In this document: piece after piece, positions 5,824 to 32,568 of the stretch
Layout: the number at the start of each line of letters is the position of its first letter
Position numbering within the stretch: position 1 is the first letter of the stretch
Source: a virus
Virus record (IMG/VR): IMGVR_UViG_3300035698_017730
Span: 1 to 37,325 of that record
DNA: 37,325 bases
Strand: one strand, 5' to 3'
Position numbers and translations under genes: made by a program
The notes under the pieces: model-generated
What the model was told of the DNA's origin: nothing
Seen by the model: only the letters and a program-made list of their open reading frames with translations
Databases searched by the model: none

Positions 5824-5854
5824 AAAAATGCCCGACAGGTTTTCCTGTCGGGCA
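5824..5854 (-). terminator. Intrinsic terminator just upstream of the protease-scaffold SD
   Basis: A perfect 11-base inverted repeat (5829-5839 with 5844-5854) has a four-base loop. On the minus strand it is followed by TTTTTGTTT, a standard rho-independent terminator. It sits between the promoter at 6069-6097 and the SD of the gene starting at 5805, so it would end most transcripts before the gene unless it is antiterminated. Confidence 0.85.
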
Positions 5855-6062
5855 CACTTCGGTGCACTGATATGGAACGTGACGCTGGTGCTCTTGGCAC
5901 ACGGGTCGCTAAATTGTATGAGTCCAGCCCGCTTCCCAGCGGGCAATGTGCGCGGCCACCCCAGCCATTAGGGCTGGTTAAGTCACGCTAGGGGGGATAT
6001 AGAATTGCGCCAGGCCGTAGCCCCGCAATTACACGGCATGACAAGCCGAATTTAGTCCCCAC
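5826..6062 (-). ncRNA. Candidate structured leader RNA or small RNA ending at a terminator
   Basis: Transcription from the promoter at 6069-6097 would start near 6062 and meet six helices in a row. These are CGGC/GCCG (6034-6048); AATTGCG/CGCAATT (6003-6030) with an inner GGC/GCC; a closing helix of 5878-5883 with 5982-5987; inside it, hairpins at 5961-5977 (6 bp), 5927-5944 (7 bp) and 5888-5900 (4 bp); and finally the terminator at 5829-5854. A multibranch domain followed by a terminator is the shape of a regulated leader. It could equally be a stand-alone RNA of about 235 nt. I recognise no known riboswitch class in it, and its function is unknown. Confidence 0.6.
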
Positions 6063-6068
6063 CCCCCT

Positions 6069-6097
6069 ATTATACCACACTTTGCCTAATTTGTCAA
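6069..6097 (-). promoter_or_regulatory. Sigma-70 promoter for the capsid operon
   Basis: On the minus strand TTGACA (6092-6097), a 17-base spacer ending TGTGG and TATAAT (6069-6074) form a consensus promoter with an extended -10. It reads through the structured leader into the protease-scaffold gene. Confidence 0.9.
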
Positions 6098-6113
6098 GTA
6101 CCAATATTGGTAC
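6098..6113. promoter_or_regulatory. Operator-like palindrome between divergent promoters
   Basis: GTACCAATATTGGTAC is a perfect 16-base palindrome that abuts the -35 of the minus promoter. A third half-site, ATTGGTAC, at 6127-6134 abuts the -35 of the plus promoter. The same ATTGGTAC abuts the -35 at 32491-32498, and CTGGTAC does so at 27412-27418 on the minus strand. It is a plausible site for a shared regulator. Confidence 0.55.
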
Positions 6114-6134
6114 TATAAGATTGCAAATTGGTAC

Positions 6135-6163
6135 TTGACAAAACACTAAATCTGTGATATAAT
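6135..6163 (+). promoter_or_regulatory. Sigma-70 promoter for a plus-strand small RNA
   Basis: TTGACA (6135-6140), a 17-base spacer ending TGTGA and TATAAT (6158-6163) form a consensus promoter. No plus-strand gene follows for over 26 kb, but a stable RNA hairpin starts at 6170, where transcription should begin. Confidence 0.85.
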
Positions 6164-6169
6164 TACTCT

Positions 6170-6232
6170 TGATTGGTGGGTTCGCCCCTGTGGCTTGTGT
6201 CACCCACATCCAGGCTGAGCTACCCGCCATCA
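6170..6232 (+). ncRNA. Candidate small structured RNA
   Basis: The RNA would begin at the predicted start site with an 11-pair stem. Bases 6170-6173 pair with 6229-6232 and, past one bulged U, 6175-6181 pair with 6222-6228. One pair is G-U on this strand but would be a C-A mismatch on the other, which favours the plus strand. Inside, CCTG pairs with CAGG, and TGG with CCA around a ten-base loop. It lies in the gap after the Com-like gene and opposite the operon transcript. No family is recognised. The 3' end is not defined, since no terminator is visible, and longer read-through would be antisense to the Com-like gene. Confidence 0.55.
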
Positions 6233-6246
6233 CTTATCCTTCTCGC

Positions 6247-6486
6247 TTAGTAAGTAGCGAATTGTGGTCTCTGATACACTGTGCATATCTGTGACCAGTC
6301 AACGAATGTGGGCAGAAGCGCAAGTCGGTCGATATGCACCCTATTCACAGTCTTGCAGCGGGGACAGACCAGCGAGACTACGCCCACGGCGACACTCTCA
6401 AGGCAGATAGTCCTCCCGCATGACCTACACTGGACAGAGAGCAGATCGCCCTTACCCAAATGTGCAGAATCGGCACTTTTAGCCAT
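6247..6486 (-). CDS. Com-like zinc-ribbon protein
   Basis: A 79-residue protein with one zinc ribbon (C20-x2-C23 and C41-x2-C44; CRSCGRTICLES, VCPRCKTVNRV). This matches the Com family of Mu-like phages, where Com binds a stem-loop in mRNA and switches on translation of the following gene. The ATG at 6486 overlaps the stop of the upstream glycosyltransferase (TGATG). Codons 3-9 are formed by copy R2 of the palindromic repeat, giving the sequence KSADSAH. The C-terminal 30 residues are unlike classical Com. A role as a DNA- or RNA-binding regulator is inferred from family. Confidence 0.7.
   Translation of the reverse strand: MAKSADSAHLGKGDLLSVQCRSCGRTICLESVAVGVVSLVCPRCKTVNRVHIDRLALLPTFVDWSQICTVYQRPQFATY
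6462..6476. repeat. Palindromic regulatory repeat, copy R2
   Basis: The core GTGCAGAATCGGCAC lies within codons 4-9 of the Com-like gene, just after its start codon. On the mRNA it could fold into a hairpin in the translation initiation region. Confidence 0.85.
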
Positions 6487-8816
6487 CAATGAGTCCTCGC
6501 ATAGGCAGCCCTCACAGCATCCACAATCACGCGCCCGGTATCGTCCCACTTGAAGTCAGCCGCCCTCTCCAAGCTCGCGTCCGACATCTTTTTGAGCAAG
6601 TCTGGCCGCAACCGGAGTCGCTCAATGACGTTGGCCAGGTCTGCGTAGGAGATATGCTTGAGTTCCGCGCCAGTATGCCACGATTTTGTGACCGCAGGTT
6701 GTATGAGCAACGCAACGTCCCCTGGCGTATTCTTTGACAACACTTCGTTCCGAACACCCCCGTCCGCGACCGAAACTACTGGCAAACCGCAGGCCATAGC
6801 CTCAACCAACGGCAACCCGAAACCCTCCACAGCTTCTACCGCGACGAAGATGTCGGCGCAAGCGAATCGATCGCGGAGTGAATATCCCGCGAATCTCATT
6901 CGTTGCTCGTGCTGTAGGGCATCGTCCCCCTGTCGCTCATACTCTATGCTGCTGGTATAGTCCACCCCATATTCCGCTTCAAATAGAACGGGGGGAAACC
7001 AAACTATGTCTTGCACCCCATAGCTTTTTACCAGGTGCATGAGAGGGACAGGTTGGAAATTATTCTGCTCGAAGGGATTTGAATGGATATAAAATATGGT
7101 GTCCATAATCCCCTCCCCCTTCAGCTTCCGCGCCGCATATACCAACTGCTCCAAGTTGGACGTGCGCTTGTTCCTTTTCAGGGCCATGACCACGAACTTC
7201 TTGTCCAACCCTACGCCTTTCCTTAACATCCTGCGCTTTTTCACAGGATACCGCTTGAAGTCGGCGTGGTCGGATCCGTGCCAGGCCCACTTAATACTCA
7301 ACCCCGTCAGCCTCTTTACCAAATCAGCGCCCCACTTGGTATAGGTGATAACCTCCCCGCCCGTCCGCTTGACATTCAACATAGCCTGAAGGAACTCGTC
7401 TGGCAGCGGCGTCCCCTCAATCGGAACGTAGATGACGAACGGCCCTTGGTACTCCACGTCCGCACACATGCCCATGATGTTGATTACCGATCCCATGTCG
7501 TAGTTGAGATAGAGAACATCGGGCTTTTCAACCGCTATGAATTGTCTCTCCTTCAGCCACATCGCCCCGTGTCCATCGTAGGGGTTGCCCCGCCATATTG
7601 GGTAGGGGTCGGACAGGGCCAGGCGCGGGTCGCCCCGCTTGTCCGACATTCCCAGGGCAGCCACGTCAAAGCCGGCGTCCACGAAGCGGTCTCCTACTTC
7701 CTTGGTTACGACTCCGAACCCTGTGGTCAGGTCCCCACAATCGCTGACGATCCCTACCTTGATCTGCTCTTCTTCGTGCGCCACCCATATCTTCTTGCGG
7801 TCTGGGTCGGGCATAATGACGATAGGGCGTTCAATGGCTTCAATCAACTGTGAAGAGATAGTCGCAATATCATATTCCTGGGCTTTTCCTATAAATTGTA
7901 ACGATAATTCCTTCCTTTTGGTATTATTGTTACATAGATCATGGGTTTTTTGCACCAACTCATCAAAGGTATCCCAAGTTAGGGCGCCGCCTTCGGGCAT
8001 CCCACCTGAGTTATGCACAAGGGGGATCGTGCCTGCGGCCATGCTTTCCTGAACCACGATGCCCCTGTGCTCACACGCGGAGATGTCAGTGGCCTGATAG
8101 CCCGTTGCGCTGACGAGGACGGAGGCACGACGCACGAGGGCACGGTAGTCTTCGCCGTTGAGATCGTGATGGAAATGGATTCTCTTGCTATTCCCCGCCA
8201 AGGCATGGATGCGGGCGACATAGCGGGGATGTTGGGCGGCCCCCACTAGGTGCAAATCCCAATCGGGCAAGTCGGCTTGCTGAAAGGCTTTTATTACCAC
8301 ATCATGGCGCTTCGTGTTGCCATTAGGCACATCAAAGAAACGTCCAACTTGGATAATGCTCTTTTCTTTTGGAAGGGGGGTGAAATCATCTACCTTGATT
8401 GGGGGGTATATAACAGTGGATTCTCTACCCCATCGCTCCTGCACAGCCCATTGACAAAACTTGGAAATTGTGATCACGGTATCATAATCACGGGTGTCCC
8501 ACGGAAATTGTGGAAAAAACTGGACGAGGACCCCAAGGCGGCAGGGGTTAGCGAGTTTAAGGTGATGCGAGATGTTGATGAGCGCATCATACTCGCTGAG
8601 CTCGTCTGTGCCCAGGTATTTCCACTTCAGGTCTGCCAAACCGTCTATGCCGTAATCTTCGCCTGCGGTGTCAAAGGCAGAAGTATTCCCGCGCTCTATG
8701 AACACCGTGAGGTCATAATACTTCTGGAGCGCGTGCAAGAACCAAAAAGTGCAGTGTTCCCCCCCACCGTGCCCCCCTCCAGCTCCCACATGCGTACAAA
8801 ACGCTGCTATCCTCAT
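6486..8816 (-). CDS. Two-domain GT4 glycosyltransferase
   Basis: At 776 residues this is about twice the usual GT-B length. The N-terminal half has a complete GT4 pattern (VGRFFDVPNGNTKRHDVVIKAF, then VVQESMAAGTIPLVHNSGGMPE). A second domain begins near residue 355 (KVGIVSDCGDLTTGFGVV) and ends with the GT4 signature EGFGLPLVEAMACGLPVV. Two sugars are probably added in turn from nucleotide-sugar donors by a cytoplasmic enzyme. The start overlaps the HhH gene stop (ATGA), and the end overlaps the Com-like gene start. It is the last enzyme of the glycan block before the capsid control region. Confidence 0.85.
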   Translation of the reverse strand: MRIAAFCTHVGAGGGHGGGEHCTFWFLHALQKYYDLTVFIERGNTSAFDTAGEDYGIDGLADLKWKYLGTDELSEYDALINISHHLKLANPCRLGVLVQFFPQFPWDTRDYDTVITISKFCQWAVQERWGRESTVIYPPIKVDDFTPLPKEKSIIQVGRFFDVPNGNTKRHDVVIKAFQQADLPDWDLHLVGAAQHPRYVARIHALAGNSKRIHFHHDLNGEDYRALVRRASVLVSATGYQATDISACEHRGIVVQESMAAGTIPLVHNSGGMPEGGALTWDTFDELVQKTHDLCNNNTKRKELSLQFIGKAQEYDIATISSQLIEAIERPIVIMPDPDRKKIWVAHEEEQIKVGIVSDCGDLTTGFGVVTKEVGDRFVDAGFDVAALGMSDKRGDPRLALSDPYPIWRGNPYDGHGAMWLKERQFIAVEKPDVLYLNYDMGSVINIMGMCADVEYQGPFVIYVPIEGTPLPDEFLQAMLNVKRTGGEVITYTKWGADLVKRLTGLSIKWAWHGSDHADFKRYPVKKRRMLRKGVGLDKKFVVMALKRNKRTSNLEQLVYAARKLKGEGIMDTIFYIHSNPFEQNNFQPVPLMHLVKSYGVQDIVWFPPVLFEAEYGVDYTSSIEYERQGDDALQHEQRMRFAGYSLRDRFACADIFVAVEAVEGFGLPLVEAMACGLPVVSVADGGVRNEVLSKNTPGDVALLIQPAVTKSWHTGAELKHISYADLANVIERLRLRPDLLKKMSDASLERAADFKWDDTGRVIVDAVRAAYARTH

Positions 8817-9268
8817 AGTTCTAACCCCTCCCCCATCCCCTCCCTCACTGCCTCCACCGCCCCTTTATTCATCCCCCTCACGGCGGCCAGCTCCTCAACC
8901 GATGCCTGGCGAATGGCCTCGATGGAGCCGAAGTGGTCAAGCAGTGCTTCACAACGCTTGGGGCCGAGGCCGTGAATGGCCGCTAGTTGCCGCTTTTGCT
9001 CCCCTTGTGGGTCGGCTACGATCCGCAACTCCTTCAACTGGCTCTTGAGCCGCGTCCTGGTCTCCTCCAGTACGGCCAGCTTGTTTTCCAGGTCGGCTAC
9101 CATCAGTTCTGCCGCAAGACGTTTCAGGCGAGTATACTCTGGGGGGTCTACGTGTTTGGGCAGACATTGAAGTACATTTACTTTCCCACCGAAAGCAACA
9201 GTGACGTGTGCGGGGACTCCTGGCAAGTTGGGTAGATCGGTTGCGATCACTCTGAAATCGTCAAGCAT
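8813..9268 (-). CDS. Helix-hairpin-helix protein, UvrC C-terminus-like
   Basis: A 151-residue protein. Residues about 60-85 form a coiled coil, and residues 98-145 hold tandem HhH motifs (IHGLGPKRCEALLDHFGSIE, then LAAVRGMNKGAVEAVREGM). The second part closely resembles the DNA-binding end of UvrC, but there is no nuclease domain. It probably binds branched or nicked DNA non-specifically. A strong AGGAGG precedes the ATG. Its place between a homing endonuclease and a glycosyltransferase is odd, and it may have arrived with the nuclease. Confidence 0.7.
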   Translation of the reverse strand: MLDDFRVIATDLPNLPGVPAHVTVAFGGKVNVLQCLPKHVDPPEYTRLKRLAAELMVADLENKLAVLEETRTRLKSQLKELRIVADPQGEQKRQLAAIHGLGPKRCEALLDHFGSIEAIRQASVEELAAVRGMNKGAVEAVREGMGEGLEL

Positions 9269-9297
9269 TGTTTAACCTCCTGTGGTATTTCTGGTTC

Positions 9298-10206
9298 TTA
9301 CGCAAACGCTTCGGCAATGATAGGCCACGCCCCACGCCCTTTGATTTCGTGTTCCCAGATTACCATGAACTCGTAGCCGTTGTCGGTGGCCCACCGCGCT
9401 TTTTCGGCATCGCGTTTCTGCTGTTCGGGTCGCTTAGGGCCATGCCAATAATCGCCTTGAACTTCAATCAGTGTATTCGGTGGAATGAACTCGTCATAGA
9501 TGCGGCTATAGCCTTCGGGACGGTATTGGGTTTGGTGTTCAATGCCCATGATGTCCAGGGCGGCGGCTATCTGGATTTCTATACTGGTGGGAGATTGGAA
9601 AACGCCGTCAAAGCAGCCGCGTTCCCAGGCGGCTTGCACACCCTCGGACATTTTGCGAAGACATTCCTCTGTATACATGTCGTCAAAATCCCCCCGCTCC
9701 CGTTGTGCTTTCGTTGCCTCGGAATTTTTGCGACGCCACTCTTCGCCATAAACCCCCTGTGCCCAAGCAGCCTTGATGGCTTCAGAGAGACCTTCAAAAT
9801 CCCCCCGTGCCCAAGCAGCCTTGATGGCTTCAGAGAGACCTTCAAAATCCCCACGTGCCCAAGCGGCCCTCATTGCTTCGGGTTGCCCATCATAATCCCC
9901 GCGTGCATGGGCGGCTCTTAGAGCTTCAGAGACATCATCATAATCCCCACGCGCATGGGCAGCCTTGATAGCCTCAGGAACGCTATCCATGCTCCCGCCT
10001 GCCCACTTTGCCTTCCCCGCACAAGACTTACAGCGCGTGGCCCTTCTATCTATCTCAGCCCCACAATCTATGCAATGACTTCTCCTCCTGCATCGCCCTG
10101 TCCCATAGCAACGCTCACATAATCCCTTGGCTTTATGTGGCCTTTCCGTCGTCCCACATTCTTGGCAACAATCCCAGTCCTGTGCCCACCGCCCGTCCTG
10201 CAACAT
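9298..10206 (-). CDS. Vsr-like (EDxHD-type) homing endonuclease with tandem DNA-binding repeats
   Basis: A 302-residue protein. N-terminal cysteine pairs (CCQEC, CERC, CIDCG, CKSC) suggest two zinc fingers. The middle, residues about 73-190, is a run of 16-residue repeats (SEAIKAAWARGDFEG) of the kind that contact DNA in free-standing homing enzymes. The C-terminal 90 residues have a Vsr-like nuclease core (SIEIQIAAALDIMGIEHQTQ, DEFIPPNTLIEVQGDYWHG, FMVIWEHEI). Such enzymes cut unoccupied sites and spread their own gene. The ATG at 10206 with GGAGGGG is preferred over an upstream in-frame start. The gene has its own promoter and hairpin leader. Confidence 0.8.
   Translation of the reverse strand: MLQDGRWAQDWDCCQECGTTERPHKAKGLCERCYGTGRCRRRSHCIDCGAEIDRRATRCKSCAGKAKWAGGSMDSVPEAIKAAHARGDYDDVSEALRAAHARGDYDGQPEAMRAAWARGDFEGLSEAIKAAWARGDFEGLSEAIKAAWAQGVYGEEWRRKNSEATKAQRERGDFDDMYTEECLRKMSEGVQAAWERGCFDGVFQSPTSIEIQIAAALDIMGIEHQTQYRPEGYSRIYDEFIPPNTLIEVQGDYWHGPKRPEQQKRDAEKARWATDNGYEFMVIWEHEIKGRGAWPIIAEAFA
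9761..9990. repeat. Tandem 48-base repeats inside the homing endonuclease gene
   Basis: About five units of 48 bases encode 16-residue DNA-binding repeats. Units at 9761-9808 and 9809-9856 differ by one base, while later units are more diverged. Near-identity of the first two points to a recent duplication. Confidence 0.85.
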
Positions 10207-10253
10207 ATTCCCCTCCAAAAAGGCAAGCCCCATCCAGCCCGGCGGTGTCTGTT

Positions 10254-10332
10254 GCTACGCAAGCACCAGTGTTTAGGCTGTCAGGGGCACGTATAAAGAA
10301 AAATCCGCCCTCTCTGGTGTTGCTTACGTAGC
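10254..10332 (-). ncRNA. Structured 5' leader of the Vsr-like homing endonuclease mRNA
   Basis: The predicted transcript starts within a few bases of 10332. There, 10323-10332 pair with 10254-10263 (10 bp including one G-U in RNA), and 10314-10319 pair with 10264-10269 (6 bp) after a three-base bulge. The loop holds a GGCGGATTTTTC segment and a second GGGC/GCCC helix. The leader ends about 50 bases before the ATG. A similar arrangement occurs before the other homing gene at 27307-27375. Confidence 0.6.
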
Positions 10333-10338
10333 CTCTAT

Positions 10339-10367
10339 ATTATACCACACTTTTAAGGTTCTGTCAA
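10339..10367 (-). promoter_or_regulatory. Sigma-70 promoter of the Vsr-like homing endonuclease
   Basis: On the minus strand TTGACA (10362-10367), a 17-base spacer ending TGTGG and TATAAT (10339-10344). The TGA in the -35 is also the stop codon of the upstream glycosyltransferase gene. Confidence 0.9.
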
Positions 10368-11053
10368 ATCGCAAGACATGGAGGGAGCCTCCTCTTTACG
10401 TGTGTGCGGCCCGTCAAGCTCCCGACATCGGTGAACCCAGAGTCGGGCATAGTCATATATTGGGCCTCCTTTACCTTCATCCGTGCCAAGTCCAAAAAGC
10501 CAGCGTGGATAACACTTAGGTTTAGACTAGCCGTCTCTGCATCAGATATGGGCACGATCTCCCCCTTTTCTGCCCGGCACACAAATTCATGTACCTGGTT
10601 TACCCATTTCAGTTTGCGGTCAGCCCGCCAAATGCGGGCGTGCGTCTCCCAGCCTCCGTTTGCGGCAGAGTACGTCTCCCAGTCCCCGATCAGGTTGCAC
10701 TGTTTTATTCTCGCAGCCGTAATTGTGGCGGGCAGCCCCTCCAACAATCGCCGAATGTTGTCCCCGAACAGACGTGGCATCACTTCGTCGCTGTCCACGC
10801 GAATCCACCACACATCGTCGCCGCAAGTAGCCTTGTCGAAGCTGACCTGCCGCTGCTCCCCGAAATGTCCTGGCCACTTGTGCTCTATCACCCGCAAGTC
10901 ATAGCCATCCTTGTAGGTGCGCAGGTAATCCAAAGTCCCGTCCGTGGACCCGCCGTCCACCACCACAACTTCGTCCGCAAAGCCCAGGCTGGCCAGGCAG
11001 TCGGGCAACGTGGTCATGTTATCTTGAACGATCATCACAACGCTAAGTTTCAT
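10364..11053 (-). CDS. GT2 family glycosyltransferase
   Basis: A 229-residue GT-A enzyme. MKLSVVMIVQDNMTTLPDCL is the classic start, EVVVVDGGSTDGT the nucleotide-binding loop and WWIRVDSDEVMP the metal-binding acidic motif. It resembles the short GT2 enzymes of the WaaE/KdtX type that extend lipopolysaccharide cores (residues about 3-215). The ATG at 11053 overlaps the end of the preceding GT4 gene, so translation is probably coupled. Its stop codon lies inside the promoter of the next gene, and the last residues (RLPPCLAI) may be a tail created by insertion of the nuclease module. Confidence 0.85.
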   Translation of the reverse strand: MKLSVVMIVQDNMTTLPDCLASLGFADEVVVVDGGSTDGTLDYLRTYKDGYDLRVIEHKWPGHFGEQRQVSFDKATCGDDVWWIRVDSDEVMPRLFGDNIRRLLEGLPATITAARIKQCNLIGDWETYSAANGGWETHARIWRADRKLKWVNQVHEFVCRAEKGEIVPISDAETASLNLSVIHAGFLDLARMKVKEAQYMTMPDSGFTDVGSLTGRTHVKRRLPPCLAI

Positions 11054-12059
11054 AGACCACTTCCCTATACAGTTCCGCAATTTGATCCCCGATCACCTGG
11101 CTGGAAAACCCGTTCTCCACTAGCTCCCGCCCGTTTGCCCCCATCTCCTCCCGCAAGGTTTCGTCGCCGAGCAGGCCGCGCAGACATTGGTGCAACTCGT
11201 ACCAGCCACGCGCCGAGACCATGAAACCGTTGTGCGCATCCTTAACGAACTCAGGGAAGCTACCTACATTTGTAGTAATTACCGGCAGGCCAGAGGCCAT
11301 TGCTTCCATCACCGAACTCCCAAATTGCTCCATCCATGCGCCAAACGGGTCGTCGCTGTCCACGGGGTAGCTGGGCGAGCAAAACACCTGGGCCTCTCTG
11401 TAAATCTGGGCCAGTTGCGGCCCGTGCGGGATGTAGCCGAAGAACTTGACGGTGACTCCGAGGGTGTCCGCCCACGCTTGGAGCTGGCTTTGATTGTCGC
11501 CTTCGCCTACTATCCAGAGCTCGGCGCTAATGCCCTTCATGGCGATGATGATGTCCTTCACACCCTTGTAGGCCATCAATCTTCCGACGTACAACACGGC
11601 GGGGGTCTTGGGGACGAAAACAAGTGGCTCGAACAAATCCGTATCCACGCCTGGGTTGACGATGCGGATTTTATCGGGGGGAATTCCGTCCCACCAGAGA
11701 CAACTTCTTATCAATTCGGAGCGGGCCACCCACAGGTCTACGCGGGGGGCGTATTTCATTGGCGGGCCCCAGTTTTTTCCTGGGAGGTTATCGAAGCACG
11801 AGACAGCCAGCTTGGTCGTAGGGGGCAGGTGGGAAGCCAAGTATTGCGTGAGGGCATAGTGCACGTCCGGGCAGTCCACGATGTTCGCCCCCATGTCAAG
11901 AATCTCGTCAGGGTGCTTGAAGGTGAACGCCTCCGCACCTACGACCTGGCTCTGGAGTTCCGTTGCTACTATTACCTCAATGCCTTCACACTGAAGCCCT
12001 TGGTAGGTCTGCGAATCTGTGGTGCTCCATCGGCCTGGCCTAGCTACTACTATTCTCAT
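11043..12059 (-). CDS. GT4 family glycosyltransferase
   Basis: A 338-residue GT-B enzyme. The acceptor domain occupies residues 1-155, and the donor domain begins at PAVLYVGRLMAYKGVKDII. The conserved glutamate pair is seen in SSVMEAMASGLPVITTNVGSFPE. It would transfer a hexose from a nucleotide sugar onto a growing glycan in the cytoplasm. The SD GGGAGGTAAGC precedes the ATG, and the C-terminus overlaps the following GT2 gene. Length is slightly below the usual 360-400 residues, but both domains are complete. Confidence 0.85.
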   Translation of the reverse strand: MRIVVARPGRWSTTDSQTYQGLQCEGIEVIVATELQSQVVGAEAFTFKHPDEILDMGANIVDCPDVHYALTQYLASHLPPTTKLAVSCFDNLPGKNWGPPMKYAPRVDLWVARSELIRSCLWWDGIPPDKIRIVNPGVDTDLFEPLVFVPKTPAVLYVGRLMAYKGVKDIIIAMKGISAELWIVGEGDNQSQLQAWADTLGVTVKFFGYIPHGPQLAQIYREAQVFCSPSYPVDSDDPFGAWMEQFGSSVMEAMASGLPVITTNVGSFPEFVKDAHNGFMVSARGWYELHQCLRGLLGDETLREEMGANGRELVENGFSSQVIGDQIAELYREVVYET

Positions 12060-12062
12060 TGC

Positions 12063-12350
12063 TTACCTCCCTTGTGTGCCATCGTGGTCTATATTAAGAT
12101 GCAAAACCACTGTATAGGTGTCGCCTGCCTGAATTGGTAACACCTGGGGCAAGTCGCACCAATAATACCCATTCTCGCCACAGTAGGCGTCGGCGCGACA
12201 AATCACATTGTTGCGTGGGTCAATTATTGCGAACATACCGACTGGCTTGGGAAATCCCACCCCTGTCTGTTGCGCCTCGGCGATAGCATCAGTGATGTCC
12301 CGAAGCGGGTTGATTTCAAGATTGTCCCAATTATATTCCTTGGCTTCCAT
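12063..12350 (-). CDS. Small protein of unknown function
   Basis: A 95-residue protein starting MEAKEYNWDNLEINPL after a strong AAGGAGGGACACG. The C-terminal half alternates strands (VGMFAIIDPRNNVICRADAYC, GDTYTVVLHLNIDHDG), suggesting a small beta domain. There is no catalytic motif, signal peptide or membrane helix. The start lies inside the end of the preceding GT2 gene (19 bases overlap), so it is translationally coupled within the glycan block. It may be an accessory to a glycosyltransferase, which is a guess from position only. Confidence 0.65.
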   Translation of the reverse strand: MEAKEYNWDNLEINPLRDITDAIAEAQQTGVGFPKPVGMFAIIDPRNNVICRADAYCGENGYYWCDLPQVLPIQAGDTYTVVLHLNIDHDGTQGR

Positions 12351-13053
12351 CGTGTCCCTCCTTAAGGTGATGGTGTAAAAGCGTAAAGTGGTAAATGGTT
12401 GCAGGGCTGAATCCGACATTGAAACCCGCCCTTTGCGCGGCGAGGCAAAACTCGCGGTCGCTTCCAATGTGCGGATTCTGCACTTCGTCCAACAACCCCA
12501 CTGTCTCCAACACATCGCGCCGCAGCAGGAACACTGCACCCGTAACCCACTCTTTCCCTGCCCGACACACACGCTGCTCCCAGTAGCCGCTGTTTTCTTT
12601 ACGGATTCCGTAGTGGAACCCCGGTCCAAACGCGCCCGCGTGGTCGATTTTTCCGTCACCCGTCAAGGTTTTGCATCCCATGATGCCGCAGTCCAATTCG
12701 TACATATCCCCCAGCATGTGGGATAGCCAGCCAGGAAGCACCTCCACATCACTATTCAAGAGAAGAAAGTGAGTAAAGGGTGGAGTTTCAACTGCCATAG
12801 CCAACCGCAATCCCTGATTACAGGCTTCGGTAAACCAGAGGCGCTTATGGGGACAATGAGCCACAATCCAGCCCCCAGAAGCACATTCCTCAAGGTATGC
12901 TTTCATCTCCTCGTCAGGGTCACTAGAGACAACGATAATGTTGAAAGGAACCACGGTATGTTCCCAAACGCTATCTATGCAACCGCGCAGGAACTCAACG
13001 TCCCTGAAGCTAGGAACTATGATCGCCACACGGGAATTAACGAATGTCGGCAT
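12331..13053 (-). CDS. GT2 family glycosyltransferase, rhamnosyltransferase-like
   Basis: A 240-residue GT-A enzyme: RVAIIVPSFRDVEFLRGCIDSV, then IIVVSSD, with FLLLNSDVEVLPGWL as the metal-binding motif, and a later TGAVFLLRRDVLETVGLLDE acceptor-side motif like that of WbbL-type enzymes. The start overlaps the end of the preceding small gene by 17 bases, and there is no clear SD, so translational coupling is likely. A degenerate-flank copy (R3) of the palindromic repeat is embedded in the coding sequence and encodes VQNPH. Confidence 0.85.
   Translation of the reverse strand: MPTFVNSRVAIIVPSFRDVEFLRGCIDSVWEHTVVPFNIIVVSSDPDEEMKAYLEECASGGWIVAHCPHKRLWFTEACNQGLRLAMAVETPPFTHFLLLNSDVEVLPGWLSHMLGDMYELDCGIMGCKTLTGDGKIDHAGAFGPGFHYGIRKENSGYWEQRVCRAGKEWVTGAVFLLRRDVLETVGLLDEVQNPHIGSDREFCLAAQRAGFNVGFSPATIYHFTLLHHHLKEGHDGSQGI
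12469..12483. repeat. Palindromic regulatory repeat, copy R3 (inside coding sequence)
   Basis: GTGCGGATTCTGCAC keeps the 15-base core but lacks the AAA/TTT arms and lies in a GT2 gene, far from any start codon. It may be a functional site or chance retention. Confidence 0.6.
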
Positions 13054-13327
13054 TTACCATACAGTCCATTGGCGACGAGAGAATAGTGCCATATTCATCA
13101 CGCCATAGTGCAACGGGCGGATCGTTTCCCACCTGTCGCACTTCCATCAACCTGTTAGCTGGAGGGGCAACCTGTTCTTGGACAAGCCTGCCACGCTGGT
13201 CTATGACGACAACTCCATGTTGGCATACAGCATAAACAATCGTTCCCTCGCCGTCATACCATGTAATGACGTATGGGTCCGCACTAGTGGTCTCTATGGG
13301 TTTACCGCACGGACAAAGATAACTCAT
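13037..13327 (-). CDS. Small zinc-ribbon-like protein of unknown function
   Basis: A 96-residue protein starting MSYLCPCGKPIETT. The CPCG near the start and a lone Cys-Gln-His further on (AVCQHGVVVIDQRG) hint at a metal site, but the second cysteine pair is incomplete. The SD AGGAGGTTAT is good. Its 5' end lies inside the membrane-protein gene at 13302-13454, and its 3' end overlaps the GT2 gene. No family is recognised, and nothing indicates an enzymatic role. Confidence 0.6.
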   Translation of the reverse strand: MSYLCPCGKPIETTSADPYVITWYDGEGTIVYAVCQHGVVVIDQRGRLVQEQVAPPANRLMEVRQVGNDPPVALWRDEYGTILSSPMDCMVNADIR

Positions 13328-13454
13328 ATAACCTCCTCAACACTACGTCCATCACCCACCACACCGCCGCTCCCACCCCCGCCGCCGTCAAGATGGCTAC
13401 CAGAATGGCGATTGATAGGAACGTGCCGATGATGTCAATCGGCTTGCTTACCAT
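13302..13454 (-). CDS. Small single-pass membrane protein
   Basis: A 50-residue frame with one long hydrophobic helix (residues about 8-38; IIGTFLSIAILVAILTAAG) followed by a basic tail. Its ATG overlaps the stop codon of the GT4 gene upstream, and its end overlaps the start of the next gene, which is the packing style of this operon. Codon use and the membrane pattern support it as real. The function is unknown. It might anchor a glycosyltransferase at the membrane. Confidence 0.55.
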   Translation of the reverse strand: MVSKPIDIIGTFLSIAILVAILTAAGVGAAVWWVMDVVLRRLYELSLSVR

Positions 13455-14422
13455 TGCGCGCCAGCAAGCACTTCTCGTAACAAATCTACATACTCTCTAG
13501 CCATTCTCTCTTTGCGATGGTGCCGCATTGAACGCCGACAAGCCTTCGGGTCCAGGTCATCACACGCCTCAATAGCTTCAATGTACTCCTCAATGGTGTT
13601 GCAGATGAAGCCATTTACCCCCTGGATAATATACTCCGGGAGGCAGCCATTATCGCTACAAACCACAGGAGTTCCACAGTGTAGGGCTTCGTTGACAATG
13701 ATTGCACCAGCTTCCGTCCATGCGGTGCCTACCCCCACGCTGTGAATTAGTACCCGCGCCTTCTGGATCAGGTCGAGCTTCTCTAGCCCGCCCACTGAAC
13801 CCAGGTACTCAATGTTCCCGCCCAAGCGTGGCCGAATCGCGTTGTCCATATAGGCCGGCTGCCATGCGGGGCCTGCCAACTTCAACGGGACCCCCATTGC
13901 CTCCGCTACGTCTATGGCAACAGTAACGCTCTTCTCCGCGATAATGCTTCCCATGTAGAGCAAGTAGTCCTCTCGCTTCCCCGTGTACAAGGGATAATCG
14001 TCGGAGTTGAGTCCGTAATAAATTACGGGCGTCTCCTCGCCGCGCTTGAGGTGTCGCCTCTGCCCCTTGCTAATACAGACTACGTGGCGGGGATAGCTGA
14101 TTGTCATCACCTGGTATGTGTTTATGATTGGAAAATCGGGGAACGCCCTGGGAATAGTTTTGTCGTGTGTGAAGTCGATGACTCCATCCAGTCCCATCAT
14201 CACCTTCCTGAACATGGGGACGAACGTTGTCTCGTTGCCGTCCGTGGTGAATAGCTTGCCCCCAGGGGGGCACCGTGACCCCTCTTTGGCAAACAGGGTG
14301 ACGTTGTGGCCCGTTTCTGCCAGCTCGCGGGCCAAAGTCCAGGCCATCAATTCCATTCCTCCGTAGCCAGCGTCGCTGGGCGGTGTCGCTATTGCGGTCG
14401 TACTGATTACGCCGATGTTCAT
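13448..14422 (-). CDS. GT4 family glycosyltransferase
   Basis: A 324-residue GT-B enzyme with the GT4 opening MNIGVISTTAIATPPSDAGYGGME, ARELAETGHNVTLFAKEGS, a donor domain starting DYLLYMGSIIAEKSVTVAI and the signature EALHCGTPVVCSDNGCLPE. It resembles sugar transferases that act on lipid-linked or surface glycans. ATG at 14422 follows CAGGAGGAAAACA and overlaps the preceding stop. A frame extension upstream to 14485 lacks an SD and was not used. Confidence 0.85.
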   Translation of the reverse strand: MNIGVISTTAIATPPSDAGYGGMELMAWTLARELAETGHNVTLFAKEGSRCPPGGKLFTTDGNETTFVPMFRKVMMGLDGVIDFTHDKTIPRAFPDFPIINTYQVMTISYPRHVVCISKGQRRHLKRGEETPVIYYGLNSDDYPLYTGKREDYLLYMGSIIAEKSVTVAIDVAEAMGVPLKLAGPAWQPAYMDNAIRPRLGGNIEYLGSVGGLEKLDLIQKARVLIHSVGVGTAWTEAGAIIVNEALHCGTPVVCSDNGCLPEYIIQGVNGFICNTIEEYIEAIEACDDLDPKACRRSMRHHRKERMAREYVDLLREVLAGAQW

Positions 14423-15186
14423 TGTTTTCCTCCTGTATTGGGGTTCTCCCACCCCAGATTCCTCGTATCCTTTTTGAACTCCCACATTTCCGTCTCTACG
14501 CTGTCGCTGAACGCCTTCAACTGCTCACGAAAGTAACCCGCCAGTTCAAACATCGTCGGAATGCGTTCTTCGAGCGGCACTTGCCCGTTGTACCGTTCCA
14601 CGCCCTGCCAGTTATCCCTCCCCACCTTGCGCCACTTCACATCCAAGAGTAGGTGGTTTCGGGCGGCATAGGCCCAATAGTACGGTGATTTGGAGCCGTA
14701 GGCAGTCCATGGATGATTGACGCTGACCCTGTGATCGGCCAATACCTGATAGCCACGATGTGCTACTTCGTAGCCGAAATCCAAGTCCTGGTACTGTGTA
14801 AAGATGAAATCCTCGTCAAACTGTGCCCCCACACTCATCCTATACAGCGGTGCTATCCCATCCCAGTACTTAGGCAGTGGCTGGATGTGCATCTGTATCG
14901 GCTCCCCCTCTCGGTTAGGTCGTATCAACCCCACTTCAGGGTGCGCCTCCATGTAGTCGTACATCACCTGCAAATACTCAAAGTGCGGAATCTGCACATC
15001 TGTATGGAGCATGTGCCAGTATTTGGCCTTGCATCTATCCAGCGACACATTCTGCACCTTGGCCTCGTGATCGTACATGCACAGCCAATGCACACGCCCT
15101 GCATCACCTACCAGCTTCGCGGCCAGCTCGCACTGTTTGACTGCTGCCTCTTTGTCCCATCCCAAAATCCAGATTGCTACGTCCAC
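14419..15186 (-). CDS. GT-A (GT2-like) glycosyltransferase
   Basis: A 255-residue protein that starts at GTG 15186, eight bases after AGGAGG, with the TAG of the preceding gene sharing its first base. It begins MDVAIWILGWDKEAAVKQC. The segment KYWHMLHTDVQIPHFEYL fits the acidic metal-binding region of GT-A enzymes, and the later FTQYQDLDFGYEVAHRGYQV matches the GT2 C-terminal ED/Q pattern seen in O-antigen enzymes. Divergence is high, so the donor cannot be guessed. Copy R4 of the repeat is embedded here. Confidence 0.65.
   Translation of the reverse strand: MDVAIWILGWDKEAAVKQCELAAKLVGDAGRVHWLCMYDHEAKVQNVSLDRCKAKYWHMLHTDVQIPHFEYLQVMYDYMEAHPEVGLIRPNREGEPIQMHIQPLPKYWDGIAPLYRMSVGAQFDEDFIFTQYQDLDFGYEVAHRGYQVLADHRVSVNHPWTAYGSKSPYYWAYAARNHLLLDVKWRKVGRDNWQGVERYNGQVPLEERIPTMFELAGYFREQLKAFSDSVETEMWEFKKDTRNLGWENPNTGGKQ
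14983..14997. repeat. Palindromic regulatory repeat, copy R4 (inside coding sequence)
   Basis: GTGCGGAATCTGCAC, the 15-base core, has a left AAA arm but no right TTT arm. It lies inside a glycosyltransferase gene and not near a start codon. Confidence 0.6.
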
Positions 15187-15863
15187 TACCCCTCCTTTTG
15201 CCAGTTAGGATTGCGTGGTTTGTGCCCATGTACGTAAACCACTTCGCTCCGCCCTTGCTTCGGCGACATGGTGGCTATCTTCAAGCCATGCTTCCAGGCA
15301 ACGTAGGGGAAGCTGATCTGGTCACGGGGCGTCCACTGGACTTCTGCCCACCAGTCCTCGGAGAATCGCTTCACCTTTTCCGTGTGCCTGCGAAACACCA
15401 TGTAGCAAGCGTACAGCCCAGCGTTTTCAGGATAACCGTCAGCCCGATACCGCGCTACAACATCATCGTAAGCCTCTCGCGGGAATAACTTTGCCCTCCA
15501 GCACTTTTCGGCCTCTGCGTAGGCGCACGTCCTGCCTGGATGCTGTAGCGCAAAGATGTCAGCATCCTGTGATTTTGCAATCCGTAGAAGTTCCTGGGGG
15601 GACATAAGAAGCTGGGCGTTGCTGTCCACGTAGATGCTGCAATCGTACTTATCCAAGATGTCGGGCCAGAATATCTTGACCCGCCTCTGCTTGAGCACGC
15701 GGAACATCTCGTCTGGCAGGGAGACCTTGACCATCTTGTAGTCCGTCTTGGCTTTGTAGTGCATATCGGTAAAGCATAGTTTGTCCACCCCTGGCATTGC
15801 GGGCCTGGGGTGGAACAAAGCGTCGGGCCGCCCAAAGACGGCGGTGTAGACCACAGCTTTCAT
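15186..15863 (-). CDS. DUF616 / TOD1-like glycosyltransferase, copy 1
   Basis: A 225-residue protein: MKAVVYTAVFGRPDALFHP, KLCFTDMHY, RVKIFWPDILDKYDCSIYVDSNAQL and ALQHPGRTCAYAEAEKC. This order (opening strand, CFTD, a conserved Asp in YVDSN, HPxR with Cys) is characteristic of the DUF616 (TOD1/MUCI70) family of predicted glycosyltransferases. A paralogue lies at 21205-21912. The start at 15863 overlaps the methyltransferase stop by four bases, and the end shares a base with the next GTG start. Sugar donor and acceptor are unknown. Confidence 0.75.
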   Translation of the reverse strand: MKAVVYTAVFGRPDALFHPRPAMPGVDKLCFTDMHYKAKTDYKMVKVSLPDEMFRVLKQRRVKIFWPDILDKYDCSIYVDSNAQLLMSPQELLRIAKSQDADIFALQHPGRTCAYAEAEKCWRAKLFPREAYDDVVARYRADGYPENAGLYACYMVFRRHTEKVKRFSEDWWAEVQWTPRDQISFPYVAWKHGLKIATMSPKQGRSEVVYVHGHKPRNPNWQKEG

Positions 15864-16381
15864 CTCGCGTTCCCCGCTATCTCAAAATACCAGGATACCT
15901 TACTGATGCGCTCCACGGTCGCGCCCCACTTCTCCGCAAACTCCTCTGGTTCAAAGACATTCTTGACCCAGCGGCTCGTGGCCTTGTACCCCCAAGGGCT
16001 ATCTGGGCGAGGGTTCACACCGATGACTTTGCCGCCGACGCGCAGGGCTTCCTCCAATGCCCGATCAGGATCGTCGCACTGCTCCAACACGCCCGATAGC
16101 ACCACCGTCTCAAAGGCATCATCGTCAAAGGGCAACTGTTCGGCCCTCGCCAGTTTCACGGGTAGCCCCTTCAGGCACGCCAGCATGACCATCTCCTGTG
16201 TGGCGTCAATCCCCACACCGCCCTCCACGTCCTCCAGAAGCCACCCTGTATTGCACCCTACGTCCAGCCAGGGGGCCTCAATACGCGGCACCAGGAAGTC
16301 GTGGATTCTCTGGTTCTCGGCTGCGTGTCCCTTTTCAATGATTACGTTGTATCCGAAGTCGCTGACAGCCTCTTTAGGCAT
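15860..16381 (-). CDS. Class I SAM-dependent methyltransferase
   Basis: A 173-residue protein with motif I WLDVGCNTGWLLEDV (residues about 37-51), an acidic second strand (GVGIDATQEMV), and motif IV/V FETVVLSGVLEQCDDPDRALEEALRVGGKVIGV. It is shorter than most Methyltransf_11 members but covers the whole SAM-binding fold. It probably methylates a sugar, a glycan end or a lipid intermediate, judging from its neighbours (deacetylase and DUF616 genes). The first 40 bases lie inside the deacetylase gene. Confidence 0.8.
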   Translation of the reverse strand: MPKEAVSDFGYNVIIEKGHAAENQRIHDFLVPRIEAPWLDVGCNTGWLLEDVEGGVGIDATQEMVMLACLKGLPVKLARAEQLPFDDDAFETVVLSGVLEQCDDPDRALEEALRVGGKVIGVNPRPDSPWGYKATSRWVKNVFEPEEFAEKWGATVERISKVSWYFEIAGNAR

Positions 16382-16905
16382 TGTCCCAAATCCTCCAATG
16401 TGTGCCCACCTCTGTGAAACCGCCAGGAGTGCAGATAGACGATTTCAGCCGTGGGGGTCCCGCTTTTCAAGTAGTCTTCCAACCGCTGCGTTTGGGCCGA
16501 GACCTTCAATCCTGACATCCGCTCTGACCAGTCGCCCAACTCCCCTAACCCTGCATACGGTGGGCAGTAGTAGGTTGGTGTCAATCCCCAGGAAATCAAT
16601 AGCGCAATAGCTTCTTCGATCTCCCAATCCTCGACGGTGGGGGTATGATAGAGGCCGTGAACCCCAATCAGGTCGTCGCGGGAGAGCAGGTATTGCAGAA
16701 CAGGGCCGTTTTGCGCAAAGGTGTAATCTCCTCCCCGCCGACGGATTTGCTCGCCGTTCCTCGTTGCCACTATCGGGGCTTCTGGCTTCCCCCTCGGCGT
16801 GATCGCCTGCAAGATTCTGAAGCCGTACTTGTCACACAACTCACAGAACTGCATGAACGGCCCTATCGCCGTGTCAAACCCCACATCGTCGTTACGGATG
16901 ATCAT
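16342..16905 (-). CDS. Polysaccharide deacetylase-like protein (NodB/DUF2334 type)
   Basis: A 187-residue protein with the opening RNDDVGFD (metal- and base-forming aspartates), a central GVHGLYHTPT giving the His-x(3)-His-like metal pair, and YYCPPYAGLGE as the conserved Pro-Pro segment. This is the pattern of a NodB-fold N- or O-deacetylase in compact form. It would trim acetyl groups from a hexosamine, which fits a glycan pathway. It is coupled to its upstream neighbour by a four-base overlap. Confidence 0.7.
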   Translation of the reverse strand: MIIRNDDVGFDTAIGPFMQFCELCDKYGFRILQAITPRGKPEAPIVATRNGEQIRRRGGDYTFAQNGPVLQYLLSRDDLIGVHGLYHTPTVEDWEIEEAIALLISWGLTPTYYCPPYAGLGELGDWSERMSGLKVSAQTQRLEDYLKSGTPTAEIVYLHSWRFHRGGHTLEDLGQCLKRLSATSDTT

Positions 16906-17591
16906 GCACCAGCCTCCCTTGTTACGAGATCAAGGGCGTCTTGAATCTCCCACAGCCAGTCTATCTCTACAAACCGCTCCACGTCGTAATCATATCGGGG
17001 GCCGTGAACGTTGAAGTTAAGTGCGTGGAAAGCGCTGCCTTCCCTGCGATTCTCAAGCTCTGCAAGCCATAGCCGATTGTACCCATAGGACATCAGGTAT
17101 TTCTTGAGGAGATCGAGGAAGGGCGGAATCTCCCTGGCAGTCAAAACGAAGTTCCATTCACGCTCCTTGAACTCGTAGATGCAGGGGGCTTGATAAGACA
17201 ATATTTCTCCAAACAGGTCATCGGTAAGCACCCAGTCTCCAAACAGGTTGAAGATTTTGGAATCACACTCCAGCTCTGGCGTAGACAGAAGTTGTTTGAG
17301 TAGAAAGACTACGCTGCCTATGAGCCGCCTTGGTTCCAAAGCGGGGGACTGACAGAGCTTGCAATCCAGCACCTCAAACTCAGCCAAGTGATTCGCTCGC
17401 CAGCCGTGATGTCCAACTTGCCCGACCGCAACAAGAACCTCCATGCCTGCTTGCCGAGCCTGCCGCACCAATCGCCCCACGACGGTTTCCGCCCCCAGGT
17501 CGATCAATGGTCTGGGGCTGGGAAACTGCCTATCCTTTCTCCCATCAGGCGCAATGGGGCCAGCCGCTGGAATGATAGCGAAGTGCTTCAC
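16902..17591 (-). CDS. Sugar nucleotidyltransferase-like protein
   Basis: A 229-residue protein starting at GTG 17591 (AAGGAGCAACA upstream; GTGA overlap with the previous stop). KHFAIIPAAGPIAPDGRKDRQ with PRPLIDLGAETVVGRLVRQA is the nucleotide-binding loop of the NTP-transferase family, and FGDWVLTDDLFGEIL supplies the acidic metal site. It would activate a sugar phosphate to an NDP-sugar in the cytoplasm. The usual Gly-x-Gly-Thr-Arg loop is altered, so substrate choice cannot be read and activity is less certain. Confidence 0.65.
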   Translation of the reverse strand: MKHFAIIPAAGPIAPDGRKDRQFPSPRPLIDLGAETVVGRLVRQARQAGMEVLVAVGQVGHHGWRANHLAEFEVLDCKLCQSPALEPRRLIGSVVFLLKQLLSTPELECDSKIFNLFGDWVLTDDLFGEILSYQAPCIYEFKEREWNFVLTAREIPPFLDLLKKYLMSYGYNRLWLAELENRREGSAFHALNFNVHGPRYDYDVERFVEIDWLWEIQDALDLVTREAGA

Positions 17592-17995
17592 TGTTGCTCC
17601 TTGATAGTCTCTATGATTTGTGAGGTAGACAAACCGTAAAAGTAAGGGGTCATAATGACCCTCCCCCCATGCACCTTCATCCACTCCGCCCCAGGGATGT
17701 CAGCCCAATCATCCCCGTGGAACAGGATGTCAGGCTTTAGATTCTTGAGGTTGTCCGTGGGGTCTCTGGAGTTTTGGGGCACAACTTCATCTACGCAACT
17801 CAACGTCTCGTAGACGGCGGCTCGAAAGGGATAGGGGATGATGGGCAACCGCTTGTAAGATGCGATGGCTTGATCCGTCAAGAGTCCCACTATCAAGTAG
17901 CCACAGTGCTTTTTGCACTCCAAGAGCTGACGCAGGTGCCCATAATGAGGCCCTAAGTCGCCTGCATGAAACGAATAGCCAACAACACCCCTCAT
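17588..17995 (-). CDS. Cytidylyltransferase-like protein (HxGH superfamily)
   Basis: A 135-residue protein with the nucleotide-binding HYGH motif (residues 17-20) after VGYSFHAGD, a DILFHGDDWAD stretch, and a closing GLSTSQIIETI that matches the ISTTxxI motif of glycerol-3-phosphate cytidylyltransferases and ADP-heptose synthase domains. It would couple CTP or ATP to a phosphorylated alcohol or sugar. ATG at 17995 overlaps the preceding stop (ATGA). Full length for the family (about 130 residues). Confidence 0.8.
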   Translation of the reverse strand: MRGVVGYSFHAGDLGPHYGHLRQLLECKKHCGYLIVGLLTDQAIASYKRLPIIPYPFRAAVYETLSCVDEVVPQNSRDPTDNLKNLKPDILFHGDDWADIPGAEWMKVHGGRVIMTPYFYGLSTSQIIETIKEQQ

Positions 17996-18324
17996 TTCCA
18001 AAACCCGCCCTCTTCTGGATTCACGAAGCTATCCACCAACCATCTCCCAAACGGCATGGGTTCGTGCCAGAACCGATAGGCGGACAGTATACAGAAGGCC
18101 ACCGTGAAAATGCCAACCCCCCAAAACACAGTGTCCACCCAGTCCCGCTGTAAGAAGTTGTGTATGAACTGCAAGACGTAAATGACCCAGCTTGTCAGAT
18201 AGAACTTGCGGGATACGTCACGCGCCGACTTGCGCCTTCGTATCTTCGTGCCCTGCCAAACGTACTTGAACCGAACAGGAACGCCTAAAATCAGCACTAG
18301 ACTGGCGATGATTTTAGCGAACAT
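17992..18324 (-). CDS. SemiSWEET/PQ-loop-like membrane protein
   Basis: A 110-residue protein with three predicted membrane helices (residues about 3-20, 42-60 and 66-85). The loop RRKSARDVSRKFYLTSWVIYVLQF resembles the KSAxDIS segment that links helix 1 and 2 of SemiSWEET sugar carriers, which are 85-100 residues long. It could move a sugar or a lipid-linked intermediate. LAB_N-type lipid proteins are an alternative. The start at 18324 has GGGGAGGTAGGA. A carrier inside a phage glycan block is unusual. Confidence 0.55.
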   Translation of the reverse strand: MFAKIIASLVLILGVPVRFKYVWQGTKIRRRKSARDVSRKFYLTSWVIYVLQFIHNFLQRDWVDTVFWGVGIFTVAFCILSAYRFWHEPMPFGRWLVDSFVNPEEGGFWK

Positions 18325-18326
18325 TC

Positions 18327-19172
18327 CTACCTCCCCATACATATTTTACACAACGGCAGTTCTGAAAAGTCTCCACGCTGTTGAGCGGCAGCAAGCTCGC
18401 GTTTCCTCTGGAAAACCTTATCAGAGAAAAGCCCGTCACTAACATTGCCGCAAACCTGCCACTTGGTATCATCCAGGCAACACCCCACGATGTCGCCATC
18501 CCAATGAACGTAGTAGTCCCGATCACCGTAGACACAGCGGGCACGTCCTGTCCCGCCCACGGCCAGTTCGTTGTCACCAGTCAGGCCAGCGAAAGTGTTG
18601 AGCTTCTTGACCATAACATCAAAGTCGTCTCCCCCCAACAGAGAGTGGATGTCTCCCACTGTCTCGTCGGGGTTGTCCTTCGTGTGCATGAGTTGGACGG
18701 CGGCCCGAAACGGCTTGCCTGCCGCCCGCCAAACCTTGAGAAAGTTCTTAGTGTTGGCTACGACACGCTCAAAGTCGGCCCCTGTATTGATGCGCTCCAT
18801 GAGCTCAGGCCGTGATGAGTTCAGGCTGATACGCACCCACGACAGGCATGGATGCCGCACCAACTCCTCGGCCCTCTCTGTCGTCAGGATCATTCCGTTG
18901 GTGCTGAAGTCCACGTTGGTAAAGCCCAATCCGTCCAAGTAGTTCAGGTTCTCTTCAAGGTATGGACTCAACAGCGGCTCGCCCGTTCCGTGCAGGGCCA
19001 TCCGAGAATGCTTGTTGCCAAACCTGACGATCTGGTCGGCCACGTCACGGAACATCTCTGGCAACATGAAGCCCCTGGGCCGCAGGCGTAGGCGGTTGGG
19101 ACAGCCGACGCACTTAAGATTGCAATGGTTGGTTTGCTCAATGAGGTAAAGTGAGAAACTCATCTTGTACAT
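18327..19172 (-). CDS. Radical SAM protein with SPASM-like C-terminus
   Basis: About 281 residues. The CxxxCxxC iron-sulfur motif is at residues 17, 21 and 24 (CNLKCVGC), followed by HGTGEPLLSP, VDFSTNGMIL and WVRISLNSS, the usual radical SAM strands. C-terminal cysteines (RCVYG, GCCLDD, QVCGN, LPLCKICMG) look like a SPASM domain carrying extra clusters. Such enzymes modify peptides, sugars or cofactors by radical chemistry. The start is 19172 or 19163, both weak in SD and both inside the previous gene. The substrate is unknown. Confidence 0.8.
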   Translation of the reverse strand: MYKMSFSLYLIEQTNHCNLKCVGCPNRLRLRPRGFMLPEMFRDVADQIVRFGNKHSRMALHGTGEPLLSPYLEENLNYLDGLGFTNVDFSTNGMILTTERAEELVRHPCLSWVRISLNSSRPELMERINTGADFERVVANTKNFLKVWRAAGKPFRAAVQLMHTKDNPDETVGDIHSLLGGDDFDVMVKKLNTFAGLTGDNELAVGGTGRARCVYGDRDYYVHWDGDIVGCCLDDTKWQVCGNVSDGLFSDKVFQRKRELAAAQQRGDFSELPLCKICMGR

Positions 19173-19998
19173 CACATTCCGAGAAGTCGTAGGGTTCACC
19201 CCTATACTTCTTGATTATTTCTGCGTAGAATTTGGTGAACAGGGAACATATATTGTCGTAAGAGAATTGAGGCCAGACGAGGGGGCTAGTGTAGAACTGC
19301 TTAATACCCTGCTTGATGCCCTCCACGCTCCTCTCTATCTTGCGGATGGGTAGGATACTGGCTATACCAACATCGGTCGTGATGACGGGGATATTCATAG
19401 CCAGACATTCCATCACAGGGGTGCCAAATCCCTCGGCTTCAGAGGCGCAGACGTACAAATCCAGCCCTTCGTAGAACGCCGGCATCTCGTCGGGCGGAAC
19501 GTTGCCCCCAACCCGCCGAAACTCCACACCCAGGTCGCGGCAGGCTTCTGCTATCAGTGATATTCCCTTGTACTCAGACGCACTGCCTTGCGCCACACAG
19601 CCAACGACGAAGGGGCGCGTAGGGGCGAACTGGGCAAAGATGCCATCGGGTATCCACACAGCATCGGGGAACTTCTCTATTAGGGTTGGGCCAACCACGT
19701 GGACGGCGGTGGATTTCTTGGCTACGGCTTCAGTATTCCCTATGCCATAGCGGTGCGATCTGATACTCAACAGAAAGGGGGTAGTCTTTATAATCTCATG
19801 GACTATAGTGCGGTGGCTGCGCAAGTCCCAGTTGCCGTAATGTACTAGATCGTGTTCTCTCGATAGTTCCAATAACTCGGCAGGCTCAATTCTGGTGTAG
19901 TACCGCACCGTGAAATCGTGTGGAATCCCTTCCACCATGCGATCCACGATGCGATCTACTATCCACCCCTGGCCATCACCCAGAATCAGAATCTTCAC
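19138..19998 (-). CDS. GT4 family glycosyltransferase
   Basis: A 286-residue GT-B enzyme, rather short because the acceptor domain is compact (residues 1-125). MKILILGDGQGWIVDRIVDRM opens the fold, VVGCVAQGSASEYKGISLIAEA starts the donor domain, and EGFGTPVMECLAMNIPVITTDVG is the GT4 signature. It begins at GTG 19998 after AAGGTAG. The tail overlaps the radical SAM gene by at least 25 bases, indicating coupled translation. Donor and acceptor unknown. Confidence 0.8.
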   Translation of the reverse strand: MKILILGDGQGWIVDRIVDRMVEGIPHDFTVRYYTRIEPAELLELSREHDLVHYGNWDLRSHRTIVHEIIKTTPFLLSIRSHRYGIGNTEAVAKKSTAVHVVGPTLIEKFPDAVWIPDGIFAQFAPTRPFVVGCVAQGSASEYKGISLIAEACRDLGVEFRRVGGNVPPDEMPAFYEGLDLYVCASEAEGFGTPVMECLAMNIPVITTDVGIASILPIRKIERSVEGIKQGIKQFYTSPLVWPQFSYDNICSLFTKFYAEIIKKYRGEPYDFSECDVQDEFLTLPH

Positions 19999-20001
19999 AG
20001 G

Positions 20002-20610: not shown

Positions 20611-20634
20611 TCTATCCTCCACTCTTGTTGATGA

Positions 20635-21198: not shown

Positions 21199-21204
21199 TA
21201 TGCG

Positions 21205-22829: not shown

Positions 22830-22830
22830 G

Positions 22831-27261: not shown

Positions 27262-27306
27262 ATTATCCCTCCCAAACGGTAGCCCCCGCAGGCGGCGGCG
27301 TTGGTG

Positions 27307-27375
27307 TTGAGCAACATCCTTAACCTTTGGGGGCTATGGCAATGAAAAAACCGCCATAGGATTTAAGTTGCTCAA
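27307..27375 (-). ncRNA. Structured 5' leader of the NUMOD3 homing gene mRNA
   Basis: The predicted transcript begins at about 27376, exactly at a 9-bp stem (27367-27375 with 27307-27315). Next come ATCC/GGAT (27316-27319 with 27359-27362) and a 7-bp hairpin (27334-27340 with 27353-27359, sharing one base), whose loop contains GGTTTTTTC on the RNA. The layout mirrors the leader at 10254-10332. Confidence 0.6.
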
Positions 27376-27382
27376 CATCTAT

Positions 27383-27411
27383 ATTATACCATATTTTCCG
27401 CATCTTGTCAA
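27383..27411 (-). promoter_or_regulatory. Sigma-70 promoter of the NUMOD3 homing gene
   Basis: On the minus strand TTGACA (27406-27411), a 17-base spacer ending TATGG and TATAAT (27383-27388). CTGGTAC abuts the -35. The portal stop codon TGA lies inside the -35. Confidence 0.9.
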
Positions 27412-32527: not shown

Positions 32528-32568
32528 TAGTACAGGCGTTTCAATACAGCCCAAATCCCTACCCACAT

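Follow-up and report, generated by a model that had tools for sequence, protein, structure and literature searches.

What might a consensus promoter do in a phage genome when it points away from the capsid operon and towards no gene of its own? The promoter that raises this question lies in an entire virus record of the IMG/VR type, all 37,325 bases of which were analysed (hereafter the window). The window carries a tailed-phage gene set with a Mu-like portal and protease, a phage capsid E protein, a terminase and a tRNA-Thr, and between the head genes the minus strand holds many glycosyltransferase, methyltransferase and related sugar genes (6486-23595, ~6.2-23.6 kb), a load that is unusual for a 37-kb phage. 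Blastn against phages and related-locus searches with TerL, capsid, portal and glycosyltransferase queries returned no close relatives, and the protease as a related-locus query gave two matches of ~40 per cent over 90 residues. The minor-head gene of another locus (L004), which had been considered as evidence for cassette insertion, had no similarity to the window's candidate, and the comparison therefore did not reveal the genes flanking the glycosyltransferase stretch as neighbours in a relative. Rfam, run on the window at gathering and relaxed thresholds, returned just a tRNA elsewhere and chance-level models, and neither ARAGORN nor Rfam gave a minus-strand tRNA.

Six perfect TTGACA-17-TATAAT promoters, this one among them, lie in the window, where dinucleotide shuffles expect 0.00:

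6135-6163, plus strand: promoter A, sigma-70, TTGACA-17-TATAAT with an extended -10, TGATATAAT; orphan
6069-6097, minus strand: promoter D, perfect, divergent from A, feeding the capsid operon leader
10339-10367, minus strand: promoter B, perfect; predicted RNA start at the base of a 12-bp stem
27383-27411, minus strand: promoter C, perfect; predicted RNA start at the base of an 11-bp stem
32499-32527, plus strand: perfect promoter carrying TTGGTACTTGACA, reading a LexA-like winged-helix gene (32591-32845)
32569-32597, minus strand: perfect promoter

Promoter A consists of TTGACA at 6135-6140, a 17-nt spacer and TATAAT at 6158-6163, matches the consensus at 12/12 positions and has a TG preceding the -10 box. 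By all sequence tests it is a real sigma-70 promoter, with both hexamers present, a spacing within 16-18 nt and an occurrence above chance, which bears out an earlier reading of the sequence alone (the sequence-only reading) that a perfect promoter here points away from the capsid operon.

Promoters A and D are divergent, with their -35 boxes back-to-back; the -10 boxes of D and A end at 6069 and 6163, ~90 bp apart, and the predicted starts are ~108 bp apart. The claimed divergence of A from the structured capsid leader is thus confirmed against promoter D (6097-6069, minus strand), and the further proposal that one control region makes two RNAs fits this divergent pair and the palindrome within it. 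Two elements accompany the promoters:

6097-6114, either strand: perfect 18-bp palindrome AGTACCAATATTGGTACT between A and D; candidate operator
5828-5855, minus strand: strong intrinsic-terminator-like hairpin in the D leader, directly before the protease ribosome-binding site

Since this hairpin stands between D and the protease start, expression of the capsid operon may depend on read-through or antitermination. The palindrome occurs once in the window, even at three mismatches, and a search for it alone in viral contigs returned three loci in unrelated contexts. The motif TTGGTAC abuts the -35 box of the promoters at 6069(-), 6135(+) and 32499(+), the extra copy beside promoter A lying at 6128-6134, and CTGGTAC takes this place at promoter C; correspondingly, TTGGTACTTGACA is found at A, D and 32499(+) and CTGGTACTTGACA at C, and the spacers of these promoters differ. 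A heptamer repeated beside several -35 boxes suggests a common operator. A and D are possibly under one regulator, for which the winged-helix protein encoded at 32591-32845 is a candidate because its gene stands behind one of the TTGGTAC-bearing promoters. The composite TTGGTACTTGACA-17-TATAAT was tried and rejected as a family marker, since it matches many phages and bacteria and none of them shares a window protein at E 1e-8.

On the plus strand past 6170, no open reading frame (ORF) combines a Shine-Dalgarno sequence with a family match, and among ORFs of at least 20 aa in 6164-6800 the sole AGGA-type start is beyond 6650. A plus-strand gene ahead of promoter A was rejected on these grounds, and the sequence-only reading holds in this respect. 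It had also called the product a small RNA, a claim that the sequence does not support: the plus strand has no intrinsic terminator near 6232, its first terminator-like sequence, a weak one, is at 6715-6728, and such sites are no commoner in that region than in shuffles. With neither a 3′ end nor a terminator visible, a bounded small RNA is unsupported; the plus-strand RNA possibly has a Rho-dependent or processed 3′ end. Opposite promoter A's predicted transcript lie two minus-strand genes:

6247-6486, minus strand: Com-like zinc-ribbon ORF of 79 aa (phrog_6417 translational regulator, E 8e-6); antisense overlap with the A RNA
6486-8816, minus strand: glycosyltransferase gene; further antisense target if transcription from A continues

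Promoter A thus has the geometry of a cis-antisense promoter, opposite the com-like and glycosyltransferase genes and without a gene of its own. Against the Pfam Com model the com-like ORF scores 18.2 bits, under the cut-off of 22.9. It overlaps the glycosyltransferase stop (TGATG), and no mom-like gene was recognised adjacent to it.

The predicted A RNA would open with a stem:

6170-6232, plus strand: 5′-terminal stem of the predicted A RNA, arms 6170-6181 and 6222-6232; fold z -1.7, helix p ~0.02

The arms UGAUUGGUGGGU (6170-6181) and ACCCGCCAUCA (6222-6232) form 11 pairs with one bulged U and one U-G pair (6177/6226), and 9 of the 11 pairs keep a probability of ~0.9-1.0 as the modelled transcript is lengthened to 400 nt. 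The helix begins 7 nt past the -10 box, on the predicted transcription start, in agreement with the earlier claim that the RNA begins at the base of an 11-pair stem. The stem exists, yet taken alone it is modestly unusual and weak evidence: 11 of 200 shuffles fold equally well, the helix p is 0.021 relative to shuffled sequence and 0.023 relative to positions across the genome, and 63-nt segments closed by stems this long occur at 187 sites in the window. The sequence-only reading had further argued that the G-U pair favours the plus strand; this fails because the minus strand of 6170-6232 folds as well (-25.0 kcal/mol, against -23.7 kcal/mol for the plus strand).

What lifts the A stem above chance is its position, which is in register with the stems of B and C. 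Their leaders are as follows:

10253-10332, minus strand: B leader stem-loop, z -3.2, preceding an endonuclease ORF (9298-10233)
27303-27378, minus strand: C leader stem-loop, z -5.3, preceding a NUMOD3 homing-endonuclease-like ORF (26410-27261)

After the -10 box, the helix starts at +7 at A, +7 at B and +6 at C. Over the six promoters the combined helix p is 3.6e-5, and 1.8e-4 without A. As controls, perfect promoters of other phage contigs reached p<=0.05 in 3 of 88 cases, and those in bacterial and archaeal genomes in 5 of 101, both approximately at chance, indicating that the 5′-terminal stem is a feature of this phage and not of perfect promoters generally; such a design seems specific to the phage. 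The locus reads most naturally as the source of a plus-strand RNA that would start at the stem and carry no gene, and this reading is partly supported by B, C and these controls. The B and C leaders share the loop GGCGG[AT]TTTTTC, and their longer transcripts are predicted to be able to refold, pairing near the ribosome-binding site. Neither leader matched Rfam, and a pattern search for the B/C architecture gave no matches. Promoter A lacks both this loop and a following endonuclease ORF, so its membership in that pair of leaders is not supported. In another phage contig (L022:919-986), a perfect promoter has its RNA start at an 11-bp stem, with tRNA-like sequence downstream.

The explanation that we put forward, tentatively and with more reserve than conviction, is that promoter A makes an untranslated, 5′-clamped antisense RNA acting in cis. 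It builds on what can be read from the letters themselves, namely the promoters, the palindrome, the stem and its register, the antisense geometry and the lack of a gene. The segment 6069-6163 would be a divergent control region at the junction of the glycosyltransferase-rich stretch and the capsid operon, from which D would restart transcription leftward for the protease and capsid, and A would make rightward an untranslated RNA whose first bases form the foot of the 6170-6232 stem. The stabilising action of 5′ structure is explained by the requirement of RppH and RNase E for single-stranded 5′ ends (PMC3997798); given this requirement, a stem at the very 5′ end should make an RNA more stable, and protection is the simplest role to be expected for the A stem. 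The 5′ clamp would thus shield the A RNA, and likewise both endonuclease mRNAs of the phage, from 5′-end-dependent decay. Entering the com-like gene and then the end of the glycosyltransferase gene in antisense orientation, the A RNA would have its effect in cis, through head-on interference or the formation of a duplex, and so limit leftward read-through from the com-like/glycosyltransferase unit into the capsid leader. A single regulator, perhaps the winged-helix protein encoded at 32591, would govern both A and D. From the features listed we infer transcription, the clamp function, the antisense effect and the regulator.

Other readings account for part of these observations. The small-RNA idea of the sequence-only reading, in its strict form a discrete trans-acting RNA with the 6170-6232 stem-loop as its body, could draw on a predicted A transcript that has no gene and whose opening stem stays folded in longer transcripts, and phage small RNAs are an established class (PMC12197685); we consider it unlikely, as no terminator follows the stem, Rfam gives no match and the fold z is only -1.7. 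The A/D region forms an inverted repeat with 37-nt arms (78 per cent), and A might also be a side effect of no consequence: in a symmetrical control region, the paired operator and promoter halves would be selected for leftward control, leaving the rightward RNA idle. Bacteria commonly transcribe non-coding RNA divergently (PMC10268837). Like symmetry-type bidirectional promoters, the region would be transcribed divergently with one arm non-coding. However, such promoters have start sites 7-25 bp apart and share one -10 box (PMC10268837), whereas A and D fall outside this definition: each is a complete promoter in itself, their -35 boxes stand back-to-back, they have no common -10, and their -10 boxes are ~90 bp apart. 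A itself scores 12/12, carries an extended -10 box and has a spacer of its own, and its stem register matches that of B and C. We therefore doubt that A is idle, giving this reading about the same standing as the discrete small RNA.

The stem might instead act on the minus strand as a translation-inhibition stem of the Mu com/mom kind. It lies 14 nt past the stop of the com-like zinc-ribbon ORF, it holds the GTG/ATG (6233/6230) of the next ORF behind an SD-like AGAAGGA, so that the start is inside the stem, and the minus strand folds to -25.0 kcal/mol; the start codon of Mu Mom sits in a comparable stem (PMC6483171). The likeness to Mu thus extends from the Com-like zinc ribbon to the start codon within the minus-strand stem that comes after it, but there is no Mom-like protein, the minus strand of 6150-6330 contains no Com motif CC(N)2-3GAG, and the downstream ORF is doubtful: its 81 aa (5988-6233) have no family match and run through both promoters, and its codon usage, like that of the com-like ORF, falls short of the range seen in the genes of the phage that are called with confidence. 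The stem start, moreover, fits a plus-strand transcription start. We regard this as very unlikely. We rate equally low the proposal that A is an orphaned cassette, a promoter and clamped leader like those of B and C whose endonuclease gene was lost; B and C are indeed cassettes of promoter, 5′ stem and endonuclease, but the plus strand holds no endonuclease remnant and A is without the loop GGCGG[AT]TTTTTC of B and C.

A clamped, cis-acting antisense RNA from promoter A would have several known counterparts. Like lambda OOP and aQ and P22 sar, it would be made from a dedicated promoter opposite phage genes and would not be translated. Unlike them, it is a predicted RNA with no visible 3′ end or terminator, and its targets would be a com-like gene and a glycosyltransferase rather than the lysogeny switch. 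Its stem resembles the stabilising stem-loops of the E. coli ompA and papA type in beginning no more than 1-2 nt from the transcript start; in contrast to that type, the stems recur at several promoters of one phage, the A RNA is geneless and the effect on decay is predicted. The B and C leaders, as structured leaders before endonuclease ORFs, recall the hairpin control of T4 I-TevI, segB and Aeh1 mobE, and alternative folds of B and C may cover the ribosome-binding site in the T4 manner, pairing near this site being known for T4-type homing endonucleases (PMC3014915). The late-promoter transcript of T4 I-TevI is missing the 5′ portion of the inhibitory structure, whereas the B and C transcripts would contain the whole stem, and A differs from the T4 and Aeh1 leaders in having no endonuclease gene.

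If the cis-acting reading of A is true, the phage sets protective 5′ stems exactly at several transcript starts, one of them geneless, and a divergent, operator-bearing promoter pair insulates the glycosyltransferase stretch from the capsid operon. A wider version, which we hold to be quite unlikely, somewhat more so than the discrete small RNA and less so than the orphaned cassette, would make the perfect promoters with stem-start transcripts a regulon with a genome-wide 5′ clamp, in which A would yield a novel type of free-standing, clamped non-coding RNA and so coordinate capsid expression with the glycosyltransferase stretch. At the other end of the set of perfect promoters, those at 32499-32527(+) and 32569-32597(-) are convergent; as they face each other within 32499-32597, the RNAs predicted on the terminase side and on the regulator side would overlap at their 5′ ends by ~29 nt.
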